Both the position numbers and the translations under genes were made by a program. Of a stretch of DNA of 64,000 bases, positions 1 through 20,660 are shown piece by piece. Positions within the stretch are counted from its first letter, which is position 1. Each line of letters opens with the position of its first letter. The DNA is from Paenibacillus sp. FSL K6-0276. GTDB taxonomy: Bacteria > Bacillota > Bacilli > Paenibacillales > Paenibacillaceae. The stretch covers positions 5,394,001 through 5,458,000 of the forward strand of contig NZ_CP150276.1 of NCBI RefSeq assembly GCF_037977235.1, written 5' to 3'. The notes under the pieces were generated by a model. It was given only the letters and a program-made list of their open reading frames with translations. It made no database searches and was not told the origin of the DNA.

Positions 1-835
1 GGAGAATGAGTGCCACTGTCGAGGCTACGACTACCCGAGCATAAATGGCTTCAAGTCTTTTAATAAAACGCTGCGAGTTGGGAACTTCCGTTTCTGCTTC
101 TTCTACCATTTTGATGATTTTGGCAAAAAGGGTGTTCTCAGCAGCTTTCGTTACTTCAATATAAAGTGGTCCTTCTCCATTCACAGTGCCTGCAAATACT
201 TCGCTACCCGCAGTTTTCTCGACAGGTACTGACTCTCCCGTTATGGAGGCCTGATCTACTGCCGATTCCCCCCGAGAAACCTTGCCGTCTGCAGGAATCA
301 AATCCCCTGGACGCACAAGCAGCAGATCTCCGATTACCAACTGGTCAATATTTACTTCATTCATGCTTCCTTTTTCAATCCGCATGGCCGTGGCCGGTTT
401 GAGGGCCATCAGCGAGGAAATATCCTTTTTACTACGTTCCATCGTATAACTCTCTAATGCACCACTTAGCGCAAAAATAAAAATGAGCATGGCTCCTTCA
501 TTCCAGTACCCGATGGAGGCTGCGCCCAGTGCGGCTGCAATCATCAGTAGGTTCACATCGAGATCACGTTCTTTGACGAGCGTTTCTACGCCTTCCTTTG
601 CCTTGTTCCAGCCACCAATTGTATAAGAAATGACATAGAGTGCTGTAGATAGTATTTCGGACCAGCCACCAACAGCCCAAGCAAGAAGCATAAGCAACCC
701 GCTGCCCAGAGCAGCCTGCATTTCGGAGTTGCTCAGCATGGCACGTGGATCGAATCGGCGCTTTGGAGCGCCTGGCTTCTTCATGCTGCCAGAGATTGAT
801 GTCTGTTGGGGTAGATGTTTTGATGTTGCTTGCAT
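1..835 (-). CDS. Heavy-metal P1B-type ATPase, 3' end outside window (PfeT/ZosA-like)
   Basis: The minus-strand reading frame opens at an ATG at 833-835, preceded by an AAAGGACGG ribosome binding site, and runs off the left edge of the window. About 278 residues are visible. They show a short N-terminus without a CxxC metal-binding domain, hydrophobic segments, and the actuator-domain motif ITGESVPVEK, which is typical of P1B ATPases that pump divalent metal ions out across the membrane. The missing N-terminal metal domain and the Fur/PerR-like box about 200 bp upstream suggest the iron/zinc exporter group (PfeT/ZosA). The transmembrane motif that would fix the metal lies outside the window. 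The family is clear, the substrate is inferred. Confidence 0.85.
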   Translation of the reverse strand, partial: MQATSKHLPQQTSISGSMKKPGAPKRRFDPRAMLSNSEMQAALGSGLLMLLAWAVGGWSEILSTALYVISYTIGGWNKAKEGVETLVKERDLDVNLLMIAAALGAASIGYWNEGAMLIFIFALSGALESYTMERSKKDISSLMALKPATAMRIEKGSMNEVNIDQLVIGDLLLVRPGDLIPADGKVSRGESAVDQASITGESVPVEKTAGSEVFAGTVNGEGPLYIEVTKAAENTLFAKIIKMVEEAETEVPNSQRFIKRLEAIYARVVVASTVALIL

Positions 836-14952: not shown

Positions 14953-15016
14953 AATCACATTCCTCCATCAACGGACAAGCTTTATCAAATATATGATTAA
15001 CAAGGGGTTTGTGACC

Positions 15017-16102
15017 ATGAGTAACGACGTAACCGCAGCACCATCATCCGATTTTGAGTTTGGTATCTACACCTTAGGAGACATTGTTGCTGATTGTCAT
15101 ACCGGCAACAAGATCAGCCCGAAACAACGACTGGACGAAGTTGTAGCTGCGGCTAAGTTGGCGGATGAGGCGGGGCTTGATGTATTCGGTGTCGGTGAAC
15201 ATCATCGACTTGATTTTGTGATTTCTTCGGTTCCAGTAGTTCTGGCAGCCATTTCTCAGGTTACTAATAGAATCAAACTCACGAGCGCAACAACCGTATT
15301 AAGCACCATTGATCCCGTGCGCGTATTTGAGGATTTCGCCACACTTGATTTACTGTCAAATGGCCGTGCAGAGATCATTGCGGGACGTGGTGCTTTTGTA
15401 GAATCATTTCCACTTTTCGGATATGAACTTGGAGATTATCATCGTCTATTCTCCGAGAATATCAATCTGCTTCTCGAGCTTAATAAGCATGAAATTATGA
15501 ACTGGGAGGGCTCCTTCCGTTCATCCCTGAAGGATTCGGAGATTGCTCCACGCCCTCTTCAACAAAGCCTTCCGGTATGGATTGGCGTAGGTGGTTCTCC
15601 TGAAAGCGCGGAGAAAGCCGGCGTACTCGGAACTGGAATGGCCATCGCCATTCTTAGCGGTAGTCCAGAACCTTTCCAAGAGCTTGCCGCAACTTATCGA
15701 CGCGCTGGAATTCAGGCGGGGCATGCACCTGAGGATCTAAAGATTGCGATCACTAGCCACGGCTACATTGCCGAAACCTCACAGCAGGCGCTGGATGAAT
15801 ATTACCCATACTACTATAGCTATCGTAATTCCATCAGTCCAAAACCTGGACAAGAATACAGAGTCTCTCGTGATGCCTTTGGGCAATATGTATCTGCTGA
15901 TAACACAATGGCTGTGGGTAGCCCGCAGCAGATTATCGAAAAAATCCTCTATCAGCATGAGCTATTCAGCCATAGCCGCTTTATGACTCAGCTCGATATC
16001 GGCGGCCTTCCTTACGCCAAGGTAGCCAAAGCTATTGAACTATTGGCAACAGAGGTCGCCCCTGTCGTACGGCGCGAGATTGCCAAGAAGAACAACCGTT
16101 AA
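15017..16102 (+). CDS. LLM-class flavin-dependent oxidoreductase
   Basis: Luciferase-like monooxygenase of about 361 residues. It has the bacterial-luciferase TIM-barrel layout: FGIYTLGD at the N-terminus, AAKLADEAGLDVFGVGEHHR, ISQVTNRIKLTSATTVL, DLLSNGRAEIIAGRGAF, LPVWIGVGGSPESAEKAG and GSPQQIIEKIL. Members use reduced flavin to oxidise varied substrates, so the substrate here cannot be named. The frame is open back to 14885, but AAGGGG and the ATG at 15017 give the normal N-terminus, and the upstream part overlaps the promoter. Expression is probably under the palindromic operator just upstream. Confidence 0.9.
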   Translation: MSNDVTAAPSSDFEFGIYTLGDIVADCHTGNKISPKQRLDEVVAAAKLADEAGLDVFGVGEHHRLDFVISSVPVVLAAISQVTNRIKLTSATTVLSTIDPVRVFEDFATLDLLSNGRAEIIAGRGAFVESFPLFGYELGDYHRLFSENINLLLELNKHEIMNWEGSFRSSLKDSEIAPRPLQQSLPVWIGVGGSPESAEKAGVLGTGMAIAILSGSPEPFQELAATYRRAGIQAGHAPEDLKIAITSHGYIAETSQQALDEYYPYYYSYRNSISPKPGQEYRVSRDAFGQYVSADNTMAVGSPQQIIEKILYQHELFSHSRFMTQLDIGGLPYAKVAKAIELLATEVAPVVRREIAKKNNR

Positions 16103-16750: not shown

Positions 16751-17866
16751 TTACGCCATTCTTTGTTCTGCATCTACCGCAATCGACCAGATGAATCCAA
16801 CTAACTCACGACCTACCACAGCCATGGCTAAATTTCGGTGTTTCCCACGTCTGACTAACTTTAGATACTTACTGTGTAACCGTTCTTGGGCTTTCCACGA
16901 CGTTTCATGGACATGAGCACTCTGCCCCTCCAGGCGCACTGTTAAATCTCCCTTAACAGCAGGACGGTGACGGTAACTCCATGCAGACTCCACCAGTGCA
17001 CGCCGCACTCCGGAATTCCCGACTTTTGTAAGACAACCTCTTTTGGTACTTGCTCCCGATGAATACTCCCGTGGCACTAGTCCCAGGTAACTCATGAGCT
17101 GAGCCGGTGAACGAAAACGCTCAAAATTCCCAATCTCGACAACTAATGTCATAGCCGTCAGCAGAGCGATTCCCCGCAGACCTTGCAACGCTTGAATGAC
17201 AGGTGCGTACGGACAGATCTCTGCTTCTTCTCGCATTGCGGATTCAAGTCGCTTGATTCTCTCCTCCACTTCCCGGAGCTGTTGCAAATATTCGGTGAAA
17301 ACCCGTTCTTGAGCTGCATAATTAAACTTCAGCATGGACAGCCATTCCCGGTACCTTTTGGTCCAGCGTTTTTTCATACCTTCTGGTGTGTGAATTTGGT
17401 GGCGCAACAGAAAATGAATGAGCCGTTGCCGAGCACGATGTAGATCTTCCCTAGCATCTTCTCGCGCACGAATGAGATCTCGTAAGGCTTCGAGTTCTGG
17501 AGTCGGCACATAGATCGCAGTCAATTCTCCTGCTCGGTGAAGCTGAGCCAGTTTTTCTGCATCCCGTCGATCGGTTTTTATTGCATCGCCGGGGCGCTGT
17601 GGAATACGCGAAGGTGCGATCACCACGCAGGAAATCCCCATCTTCGTCAGCCAGCGATATAAGTCGTACCCGGTAGGCCCGGCTTCATAGCAGACCTCTA
17701 GTGTAATCCCTGAACCTTTGAGTTTGCGAATCATTCGAGCCACTGCATCCGGGGTATGGGGAATGGCTCCATAATATCGTGCTGGTTCTCGACCTTCGTC
17801 TGCAATTGCCACCGCAATTTTTTCTTTTGACACATCCAAACCTACGTATTTTATGGTATTCTTCAT
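16751..17866 (-). CDS. IS110 family transposase
   Basis: At 371 residues this is a full-length IS110 recombinase. The N-terminal RuvC-like DEDD domain shows D11 in YVGLDVSKE, E61 in CYEAGPTGYDLYRWL and acidic residues in DAIKTDRRDAEKLA (D99, D102). A coiled-coil linker follows (about 125-215). The C-terminal transposase_20 domain begins IQALQGLRGIALLTAMTLV and contains SPAQLMSYLGLVPREYSSG and KVGNSGVRRALVESAW with the catalytic serine. The ATG is preceded by GAAAGGAGC. No frameshift is seen, so it could be active. The protein acts on DNA with its guide RNA. Confidence 0.95.
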   Translation of the reverse strand: MKNTIKYVGLDVSKEKIAVAIADEGREPARYYGAIPHTPDAVARMIRKLKGSGITLEVCYEAGPTGYDLYRWLTKMGISCVVIAPSRIPQRPGDAIKTDRRDAEKLAQLHRAGELTAIYVPTPELEALRDLIRAREDAREDLHRARQRLIHFLLRHQIHTPEGMKKRWTKRYREWLSMLKFNYAAQERVFTEYLQQLREVEERIKRLESAMREEAEICPYAPVIQALQGLRGIALLTAMTLVVEIGNFERFRSPAQLMSYLGLVPREYSSGASTKRGCLTKVGNSGVRRALVESAWSYRHRPAVKGDLTVRLEGQSAHVHETSWKAQERLHSKYLKLVRRGKHRNLAMAVVGRELVGFIWSIAVDAEQRMA

Positions 17867-18078: not shown

Positions 18079-18124
18079 TAAAAAAATCTGCCTCATAAGT
18101 AGCATTCACTACTTTTGAGACAGC
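18079..18124 (-). terminator. Terminator of the TIR-protein operon
   Basis: CTGTCTCAAAAGTAG pairs with CTACTTATGAGGCAG, followed on the minus strand by ATTTTTTTA. Confidence 0.85.
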
Positions 18125-18136
18125 CTCTTATGTTTG

Positions 18137-18370
18137 TTAAGCAAAGGATGGTTTGTTATTATCTACCTTCCCGCTAATAAGCTTCTTATATTCATCGTCT
18201 CCACCTTCTAAAGAAGGGGCAGTATAGATCTGGGCTGAAGCTGGCTGCTGAGCGGAATGGCTCGAACCTGCTTTACTTGTGGCACTCTTATCTTCTGAAC
18301 TCCTGCTTCCAGCACTTGCAGTTCGGAGAACAGCACCGGATAAGTTATTGATTCCCTTTATTCTCTTCAT
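18137..18370 (-). CDS. Small Ser/Ala-rich protein coupled to the TIR gene
   Basis: A 77-residue protein, rich in Ser, Ala, Lys and Gln, with no membrane segment and a predicted disordered middle (SAGSRSSEDKSATSK region). Its start codon overlaps the stop of the TIR-domain gene by four bases, so the two are translationally coupled and share one terminator. I do not recognise its family. The tight coupling suggests it works with, or regulates, the TIR protein. That is an inference from position only. Confidence 0.65.
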   Translation of the reverse strand: MKRIKGINNLSGAVLRTASAGSRSSEDKSATSKAGSSHSAQQPASAQIYTAPSLEGGDDEYKKLISGKVDNNKPSFA

Positions 18371-19374
18371 GCTGAATCCTCCCCTACTAAATGATTGATG
18401 GTACGGAATAAATCCTGATTATGCCCAACTACCGCCTTAAGATCATCCGCAGATAACCCATCACTCCCTGAAAAATGTACGGAAAGAACATGTTTCTTAC
18501 CTAGAGGATAGCATAGGATATATACCTCCGCAACTTCTGTGCGTTGAAAAAAAGTCCATTTACTCGATAAAAATGCATCCACCACACTTGGCTGCTTCTC
18601 ATTCCCTTTCGTTACAGACAAGGGATAGGAGTGACCACGTCCAACATTCCCTCCCACTTGAACAAGTCTTTCTTTCTCTTGAGCCTGCCAGATGGCTGCA
18701 CCGATTACACGACAATGCTTCGGAGGTAAAAAGGAATTGCGTATCGCGTCGCTTAGTGCGTGATACTTCTCTCCATCCTCAGAGATGGTCACATTACTAT
18801 TATATTGCCAAAAAAAATGAAGGATACTTTCTTTGCGCCTTATTTCCATCTTTAGCTGCTCTAAATCTTTAACCGGGTCACGGAATCTTCCACGCTCCTG
18901 AATACTATCAATAATCTTACCACAGCTCACATCCACAGCAGCCGTAGGATTATCATGATGCACCTCATACTCTAAAGATGTAATTCCCGACAAATCGGAC
19001 AAAAGATGATACTCTTCAACATTCTCCCCAGGAATCAAATCATCACGGGCAGTCACCTGATCCGGCACTAAGCAAAAGACGCGATTACGCCGTAATCTGG
19101 CCCAAAACAAGCCCATTTCAAACCCCGTATTATCGCGAGTTACATAATAAAATTTACCGCGTATTTTGGCGACATCATCTGGCGAGAACACAAATACGGC
19201 AAAATCGCTCTCATCCAAATTTCTCTCCAATGCCTCCATCGTGTATTCATTCGCTCGAAAGGCATTGGCATACCAAGGATGTACTTCAGCATCCCTCTTC
19301 AGCTGCTCATGAATCGCTCTTGCATAACGTATGGATTCCCTGGAAGATCCAATGAATAGCTTTGGTTTAGTCAC
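18367..19374 (-). CDS. TIR-like (CAP12/Pycsar-type) domain protein with C-terminal sensor-like region
   Basis: Residues 4-150 match the predicted nucleotide-binding TIR-like family (PF10137 type). KLFIGSSRESIRYARAIHEQ is the first strand and helix, SDFAVFVFSPDD the second block, and TRDNTGFEMGLFWARLRRNRVF carries the conserved glutamate (E86) expected to be catalytic for NAD cleavage. Residues 170-335 form a separate domain ending LSVHFSGSDGLSADDLKAV and a helix, reminiscent of a GAF-type sensor. No cyclase, STING or CBASS gene is adjacent. Translation starts at GTG after AAGGAGC. Defence by NAD depletion is inferred from the domain. The trigger is unknown. Confidence 0.8.
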   Translation of the reverse strand: MTKPKLFIGSSRESIRYARAIHEQLKRDAEVHPWYANAFRANEYTMEALERNLDESDFAVFVFSPDDVAKIRGKFYYVTRDNTGFEMGLFWARLRRNRVFCLVPDQVTARDDLIPGENVEEYHLLSDLSGITSLEYEVHHDNPTAAVDVSCGKIIDSIQERGRFRDPVKDLEQLKMEIRRKESILHFFWQYNSNVTISEDGEKYHALSDAIRNSFLPPKHCRVIGAAIWQAQEKERLVQVGGNVGRGHSYPLSVTKGNEKQPSVVDAFLSSKWTFFQRTEVAEVYILCYPLGKKHVLSVHFSGSDGLSADDLKAVVGHNQDLFRTINHLVGEDSA

Positions 19375-19520
19375 GGCAGTGCTCCTTCATCCTTCCCGAT
19401 ATGTAATAATTATACAAGTCTTTAGGCCACCGGAAAAGAGTCCATGTTCTCAAAAAATATTATTCTAAACCTCGTAAAGTGGGTAAAAAATTACGACTAC
19501 TTTAAAAAAGCGAGGATACT

Positions 19521-20660
19521 ATGAACAAAATGATAGGTGTCACACTGCTTGCGGCATGCCTTTTGGGTATGGCAGCACCACAAACTGCTGAAGCTAAAAC
19601 AGTAGCGGGAGGTTATACGGCTCAGGTATACGCGAACTCTTTAAATGTACGCAATGAGCCGGCTAAGAATGCAACTGTTGTAGGATCTATTAAGAACGGA
19701 GCTAGGGTAACTGTGACTGATGCGCAGCACGGTTGGTTAAAGGTGCAGGCAGGGAACACCTCTGGCTGGGTAGCTGGTTATTACCTTAAAAAGGTGAACA
19801 GCACCTCCCCGCGATCAGAAGCTTCTGGAACATCTGGAGCATCCAATGCTACTGTTAGCTCCTCCACCTCAGCCAGTGTTCCTAGTAGAACCGCAAAGGC
19901 TACAGTTACGGCTGATTCTCTGCGCATCCGAAGCGGTCCGGGAACACAATATAAGGTGCTCGGTTCTTTAAAGGCTAAGGATACTGTTGCCCTCCTCCTT
20001 CGTCAGAACGATTGGGCGCGAATTCGAACAACAAGCGGTGAAATTGGTTGGGTCGCAGCGCAGTATATCCGAAGCGGAGCCACGCCAAGCAGTACAAATA
20101 CTGTTTCGCACACAGGAAATCTGCGAGGCAAGCTGATCGTCATAGATCCCGGTCATGGCGGCAGTGATCCGGGGATGCTTGGCACTACATATAACACCAT
20201 GGAAAAAGATTTGAATCTGCAAACAGCACTTTATGTTCGCGATGCCCTTGTAGCTAAAGGTGCACGGGTTGAGATGACGCGTACTCGTGAGGATCAGAAA
20301 CCGACTCTTGCTCGTCGTGTTCAGATGAGCGAGGCCCTACGTGCAGATGCATTTGTAAGCATTCATTATAATTCTTCTCCGAAAAAAGTGTCCGGAACAC
20401 TGACCTTCTTTTACTCCGAATCGGATGATTTAAAGCTGGCACGGGCGATTGAAAACCGGCTGGGGCAAGGCATCGGTCTTAAGAGCAACGGATTATCTTT
20501 TGGCGATTACCACATTCTGAGAGAGAACCAAATTCCAGCTAGCTTAGTTGAACTTGGATTTCTTACCAATCCTACAGACGAGTCCATTGTCCGCAAATCC
20601 ACCTATCAGAAAAGAGCAGCCAAATCCATCGCCGATGGCGTAGCTGATTATTTTAAATAA
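19521..20660 (+). CDS. N-acetylmuramoyl-L-alanine amidase with two SH3b domains
   Basis: Secreted cell-wall hydrolase of 379 residues. A signal peptide (MNKMIGVTLLAACLLGMAAP, cleaved near AEA-KT) is followed by two bacterial SH3 domains (about 33-95, ANSLNVRNEPAKNATVVG; and 130-188, ADSLRIRSGPGTQYKVLG) joined by a Ser/Thr-rich linker. An Amidase_3 domain follows. Zinc ligands and catalytic residues are visible in VIDPGHGGSDPG, MEKDLNLQTAL, FVSIHYNSS and SLVELGFLTNP. It cuts the amide bond between muramic acid and the stem peptide. The SH3b domains should bind the wall. AAGCGAGG stands upstream of the ATG. Confidence 0.95.
   Translation: MNKMIGVTLLAACLLGMAAPQTAEAKTVAGGYTAQVYANSLNVRNEPAKNATVVGSIKNGARVTVTDAQHGWLKVQAGNTSGWVAGYYLKKVNSTSPRSEASGTSGASNATVSSSTSASVPSRTAKATVTADSLRIRSGPGTQYKVLGSLKAKDTVALLLRQNDWARIRTTSGEIGWVAAQYIRSGATPSSTNTVSHTGNLRGKLIVIDPGHGGSDPGMLGTTYNTMEKDLNLQTALYVRDALVAKGARVEMTRTREDQKPTLARRVQMSEALRADAFVSIHYNSSPKKVSGTLTFFYSESDDLKLARAIENRLGQGIGLKSNGLSFGDYHILRENQIPASLVELGFLTNPTDESIVRKSTYQKRAAKSIADGVADYFK

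Follow-up and report, generated by a model that had tools for sequence, protein, structure and literature searches.

The window analysed in this work is a stretch of 64,000 nucleotides (positions 5,394,001-5,458,000) of the 6.11-Mb single-contig chromosome of Paenibacillus sp. FSL K6-0276. It contains a pair of genes located between a gene coding for an LLM-class flavin oxidoreductase and a divergent amidase gene, neither of which is a member of the pair. The first gene codes for a protein that combines a TIR domain with a predicted GAF-fold domain (the TIR-GAF protein), and the second one, which overlaps it by 4 bp, codes for a basic microprotein. The nearest relatives of the window, according to the genome scan and the tree, belong to Paenibacillus. 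The features of the locus are collected in Table 1.

Table 1. Features of the TIR-GAF/microprotein locus (nucleotide positions are those of the window; residues are those of the TIR-GAF protein)
Feature	Position	Strand	Remarks
LLM-class flavin oxidoreductase gene	14999..16102	+	Border of the insertion site; neighbour, non-member
IS110-family transposase gene	16751..17866	-	PF01548, PF02371; between the pair and the LLM oxidoreductase gene
Intrinsic terminator	18080..18127	-	Hairpin followed by a T run, directly 3' of the small gene; z = -7.2
Partner microprotein gene	18137..18370	-	77 aa, ATG start, basic product
TIR-GAF gene	18367..19374	-	335 aa, GTG start
Ribosome-binding site AAGGAG	19382..19387	-	5' of the GTG start
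-10 element TATAAT	19409..19414	-	Within a conserved block; from the upstream-region alignment
N-acetylmuramoyl-L-alanine amidase gene	19521..20660	+	Divergent neighbour, other border of the insertion site, non-member
TIR NADase domain	residues ~4-160		Active-site positions S10, R80, N82 and E86
Linker helix	residues 167-193
GAF-fold domain	residues ~195-335		AlphaFold model and Foldseek

The coordinates of the pair, its four-base overlap and its common terminator, all of them part of the original prediction, agree with the positions of the open reading frames and with the hairpin found behind the small gene. The -10 element of the TIR-GAF gene can be regarded as conserved because nine relatives share the block TGTATAATTATTACATAT in which it lies, together with the AAGGAG motif. 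A good -35 consensus was not found in the same upstream alignment. Different but equivalent hairpins are present directly 3' of the small gene in the relatives. One promoter, a 4-bp overlap and one terminator suggest that both genes are co-transcribed.

The insertion sequence IS110 does adjoin the pair, as had been pointed out beforehand, but it does not belong to the picture. Among the genomes compared it is present only in that of the window, and the same locus in relatives (L099, L062 and others) carries the pair without it, so that the IS110 was ruled out as a component of the system. Judged from these relatives, it is a recent insertion unrelated to the cassette.

Residues 5-136 of the TIR-GAF protein match the Pfam family PF10137 (CAP12/Pycsar TIR; E 9e-23, 81 bits versus a cut-off of 24.7), and the protein also matches the PADLOC TIR effector and PycTIR models, with E-values from 1e-38 to 2e-30. 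Its best PDB relatives by sequence are the Cap12 TIR-STING 9lmq, PycTIR (8jsj) and Cap12 7un8. In SfSTING the NAD pocket contains S10, R78, N80 and E84 (PMC9402430), and sequence comparison indicates that S10, R80, N82 and E86 of the TIR-GAF protein correspond to them. E86 aligns with the glutamate of Cap12/SfSTING, which is the known catalytic position. No substitution of R80, N82 or E86 occurs among 58 homologues, and S10 is almost always kept in a set of 30. The assignment of a CAP12/Pycsar-type TIR domain with a catalytic-type E86 is thus upheld by the PF10137 and PADLOC matches and by the invariance of this residue in 58 sequences, and the predicted TIR NADase would hydrolyse NAD+. An in-frame TAG codon flagged in four homologues was dismissed, since it is the normal terminal stop.

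The C-terminal domain does not match any entry of the family libraries searched, and no Pfam GAF model appears among the matches obtained for 22 members. An AlphaFold model built on 58 homologues (mean pLDDT 86.5) shows the order helix, helix, strands, helix, three strands, and helices, which is a typical GAF topology. Foldseek matches of this model include the solved GAF domain 4g3v (E 4e-4), the structure 3e0y (E 1e-4), which we take to be another GAF domain, and several Rag GTPase structures, whose roadblock-type domains presumably have a fold related to GAF. In the viral fold library the only matches of note were of the TIR/deoxyribosyltransferase type. The C-terminal domain is predicted to adopt a GAF fold, and the label "GAF-like" that it had received earlier proved to be right at the fold level, because of the topology of the model and the Foldseek matches to 4g3v and 3e0y, even without a Pfam match.

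The partner microprotein is always basic (median pI 10.1) and 53-105 residues long. Comparison of 46 pairs indicates that its N-terminus is variable and its tail conserved. The most conserved stretch is formed by the C-terminal ~30 residues (~48-77), with the pattern GPSxEGxD..Y.KV.SGxV...KPSFA, in which the conservation of individual positions is 43/46 for P52, 44/46 for G56, 38/46 for K73, 41/46 for P74 and 40/46 for F76. The description of the partner as a small disordered protein is therefore adequate for its N-terminal half, which is disordered and variable, but not for its last ~30 residues, which are strongly conserved. When modelled alone, the microprotein reaches a mean pLDDT of 59.6, with values of ~77-80 and no secondary structure in the tail; this unstructured model, though not informative, would fit a motif that becomes folded once bound. 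None of the family libraries searched gives a name to the microprotein. The dN/dS ratios of close pairs are 0.06-0.09 (small gene) and 0.045-0.09 (TIR gene), so both genes encode selected proteins and, judging by these ratios, both are under purifying selection.

A scan of ~85,000 genomes yielded 80 loci which, together with one viral contig, make up a set of 81. In all of them (81/81) a small basic ORF, identified by script in 79 cases and by eye in two, is located directly 3' of the TIR gene, its start lying between -56 and +5 with respect to the TIR stop. The partner is also present in 39/39 full-length loci of a first set, whose species overlap with those of the 81 loci, and in another 13/13 full-length loci from Bacilli; in the most distant Bacillaceae members it was assigned by position and a weak match to the tail. 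A search for both genes in 61 genomes detected neither a TIR-GAF gene without its partner nor a partner without a TIR-GAF gene. Homologues of the TIR gene devoid of the small gene, whose existence had been named beforehand as an objection to the pair, do not occur among the 81 loci. On the loci compared, the pairing is obligate. Neither is the pair a feature of this genome alone, since it recurs from Paenibacillus to Neobacillus and Sporosarcina: its hosts belong to Paenibacillus, Cohnella, Gorillibacterium, Brevibacillus, Neobacillus, Peribacillus, Sporosarcina, Ureibacillus and Bacillus. A Terribacillus plasmid, pDMT04, also carries the pair (L275:7001-8163), adjoining the gene of a DUF3854 protein and genes for replication and conjugation.

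Some altered copies were found as well. In Paenibacillus sp. PastM-3 (L117 / L029) unrelated sequence has taken the place of the TIR gene's 5' end, with loss of the first ~16 TIR residues, and the partner is intact. Two loci (L286 and L287) contain intact microprotein ORFs behind frameshifted TIR-GAF remnants, in genomes that hold an intact pair elsewhere. These two microproteins show equal synonymous and nonsynonymous change (dN/dS about 1); therefore, they look like remnants subject to drift and prove nothing on the role of the partner. Another locus (L285, in G254 C4) contains an orphan microprotein tail, VFIGPSVDGTDKEFVKVLSGNVDHKKPSFV, with no TIR-GAF gene within 12 kb. Orphan microproteins were set aside as evidence for an antitoxin, in view of the dN/dS of ~1 at L286 and L287 and because the longer gene decays first by chance.

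The way in which the pair is gained and lost was studied in 48 genomes of the genus that possess an LLM gene at least 79% identical to that of the window. Forty-three of them keep the pair beside this gene, between the divergent amidase and the LLM oxidoreductase. In the remaining five, the gap between the LLM and amidase genes is reduced to roughly 60-170 bp, with no trace of either gene. From these five clean empty sites it follows that the two genes, and nothing else, are gained or lost as one unit. The identity of the TIR protein tracks that of its neighbours (for instance, 96% versus 96% for LLM and 97% for NRAMP, or 82% versus 82% for LLM). By this measure the pair, which is mostly chromosomal, is passed on within its own clade in the manner of a core gene.

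Such behaviour could be that of a housekeeping regulator of NAD or stress in Bacillales, in which the GAF domain would sense a metabolite and the TIR domain would turn over NAD(P) or make a signal, for instance during starvation or sporulation. This explanation, which is the main rival to a use in phage defence, accounts for a single copy at a stable locus in 43/48 clade genomes, for a divergence that equals that of the neighbouring housekeeping genes, for the dN/dS of 0.045-0.09 and for the metabolic neighbours, and every named host belongs to a Bacillales genus known as spore-former. However, the pair is missing from about a third of the genus genomes and from the five close relatives with a clean site, its loci differ between clades, the Brevibacillus copies nest twice, separately, within Paenibacillus in the tree, and a plasmid copy exists. 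Moreover, the conserved -10 element of the pair is not a sporulation promoter. We consider a housekeeping role unlikely.

A search with the C-terminal domain as query revealed a locus (L213:3974-5008, minus strand) in which a DUF4062 domain (E 4e-19) replaces PF10137 before the same GAF-fold domain. A small basic ORF at -28, matched by motif and position, carries the GPS motif (...NSGPSIIK...). This swap of the head is a single example. DUF4062 is a TIR-like NADase family that acts in abortive infection (Swarozyc, PMC13174449, preprint May 2026). In the 46 pairs, the divergence of the microprotein tail follows that of the GAF domain (rho 0.87; partial 0.76 given TIR) more closely than that of the TIR domain (rho 0.66; partial 0.17 given GAF), values that are an indication and not a test since the sequence pairs are not independent. 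The exchange of the head at L213 and the co-divergence of tail and GAF suggest that the GAF domain is the target of the microprotein and that one NADase head can take the place of another.

Our preferred reading, to which we assign a probability of about 45%, is that the two genes constitute a self-contained NAD-hydrolase cassette in which the TIR NADase is the effector, the GAF domain regulates it and the microprotein binds to GAF, the enzyme being restrained until a stress signal arrives. The first gene would provide the effector, a TIR NADase connected through a helix with the GAF-fold regulatory domain. The second one, translationally coupled to it, would encode the basic microprotein; the most likely function of the conserved C-terminal tail of this partner is to bind the GAF domain and to set enzyme activity. 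This contact would most likely keep the TIR domain in an inactive assembly. A stress signal, plausibly phage infection, would break or rearrange the contact, the TIR domains would oligomerise and NAD+ would be destroyed, so that growth would stop (abortive infection or dormancy). That the NADase is a switch controlled through the GAF domain and the microprotein is likely; we infer the NADase activity, the binding of the tail to GAF, an inhibitory and not an activating effect of the microprotein, and triggering by phage.

Restraint is favoured in view of the potentially suicidal enzyme and of a small gene that comes second, is coupled to the first and codes for a disordered product. A potentially toxic enzyme followed by a disordered partner whose gene is coupled to it through 4 bp is the arrangement typical of an antidote, which argues against the same NADase module being switched on by its microprotein. 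In that case the tail would template GAF/TIR oligomers, as an activator or assembly scaffold, or the microprotein would be the ligand whose arrival switches the enzyme on. An essential subunit would explain the obligate pairing as well as an inhibitor does, and through its basic, disordered N-terminal part (median pI 10.1) the microprotein could contact nucleic acid and relay a signal. Besides, bacterial TIR domains generally require forced oligomerisation (PMC9402430). Such an activating role seems to us rather improbable, less so than a housekeeping one.

The closest relatives of the TIR domain are Cap12 and PycTIR, and GAF domains often bind cyclic nucleotides. Both facts would suit an orphan CBASS or Pycsar effector whose GAF domain binds a cyclic nucleotide produced by a cyclase encoded elsewhere in the genome. 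However, no cyclase adjoins the pair, and the NCBIfam Cap12 models score 83 and 54 bits against a cut-off of 450. Among 12 pair-carrying genomes of the genus, class III cyclases are present only in two (G000 and G007) and SMODS CD-NTases only in another combination of two (G004 and G007). As the original prediction had stated for nucleotide cyclases and STING, no cyclase, CD-NTase or STING genes were found among the neighbouring ORFs examined, and SMODS is also absent from the genome of the window itself. A cyclase acting in trans is unlikely, since SMODS CD-NTases and class III cyclases are both missing from the majority of relatives that carry the pair. On these searches the orphan effector is largely refuted for the two families tested, and we regard it as highly improbable.

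Phage defence is proposed as the most probable use of the cassette. The TIR family, the swap of the effector between two NADase families, the coupling of the two genes, their gain and loss as a unit, both Brevibacillus nestings and the plasmid copy are counted in its favour. Against it, a stable single locus in 43/48 genomes and a housekeeping-like divergence are unusual for phage defence. The enrichment near defence genes that had been anticipated was not seen among 126 neighbours of 40 loci, which gave only scattered single PADLOC matches in a descriptive count without a control set; these neighbours are ordinary metabolic and regulatory genes, such as those for catalases, kinases and transporters. 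A phage origin of the pair was dismissed, since 50,697 phage records contain no match and the single IMG/VR contig (L182) does not differ from a locus of a Cohnella chromosome.

Several known systems resemble the pair in part. The CBASS TIR-STING proteins (Cap12, SfSTING; 7un8, 9lmq) possess the same PF10137 TIR with the same active-site residues, followed by a regulatory domain, but here a GAF fold replaces STING, there is an obligate microprotein partner, and a CD-NTase is absent from the operon and from most genomes. PycTIR (8jsj), from Pycsar, has a related TIR domain; however, its sensor is N-terminal to the TIR, an order that is reversed here, and it works with a pyrimidine cyclase, none of which is linked to the pair. 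Swarozyc (DUF4062-AUX; PMC13174449) also joins a TIR-like NADase to a C-terminal auxiliary domain, and L213 is the DUF4062 version of the present module. Nevertheless, according to its description Swarozyc consists of one gene and has an auxiliary domain of its own, no mention of a GAF domain or a small partner was found in PMC13174449, and the protein of the window has PF10137 instead of DUF4062. Type II-style toxin-antitoxin systems share the two coupled genes, gained and lost together, that code for a potentially toxic enzyme and a small basic disordered protein, but neither a DNA-binding domain nor autoregulation was seen for the microprotein, and neutralisation by the second gene is putative. 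SPARTA (TIR-APAZ/short Ago) and Thoeris are likewise multi-component and based on TIR NAD chemistry, whereas no Argonaute, APAZ, SIR2-SLOG or macro-domain partner is present here.

No TIR-GAF-microprotein system was found in the open-access literature (subscription papers were outside the scope), in line with the view that the pair does not match any system that can be named. It is a variant among TIR-NADase systems that has a real chance of being a new class. A TIR NADase can usually be identified from its partner, be it STING, an Argonaute, SIR2 or a cyclase. In the present case the part of such a partner is taken by an unannotated microprotein of ~75 residues, present beside the enzyme in every locus examined. 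If this microprotein gates the enzyme, it would represent a new mode of control of NAD-depleting effectors. It would also explain many orphan TIR genes annotated as "nucleotide-binding protein" in Bacillales, and the small tail peptide would offer a handle to switch the enzyme. The question arises of why Paenibacillus keeps a potentially suicidal NADase like a core gene. In a broader proposal, which we advance tentatively, the GAF-fold receptor and the GPS...KPSFA tail of the microprotein may gate interchangeable NADase heads (TIR or DUF4062) and constitute an undescribed immune or toxin-antitoxin class, a near-core pair across Bacillales.

Two other arrangements of TIR domains, both on the minus strand, were observed. 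One of them (L214, in G454) is a 699-residue protein that carries a SEFIR/TIR_2 domain at its N-terminus and a CAP12-type TIR at its C-terminus, two TIR-like domains at the far ends of a single chain, and that has neither GAF domain nor microprotein. In the other (L218, in G276), a stand-alone TIR gene of 160 codons lies directly upstream of a gene for a degenerate TIR followed by the same C-terminal domain, and then comes a basic ORF of ~100 residues without a clear GPS motif, which makes this locus a split version with a possible pseudo-TIR.
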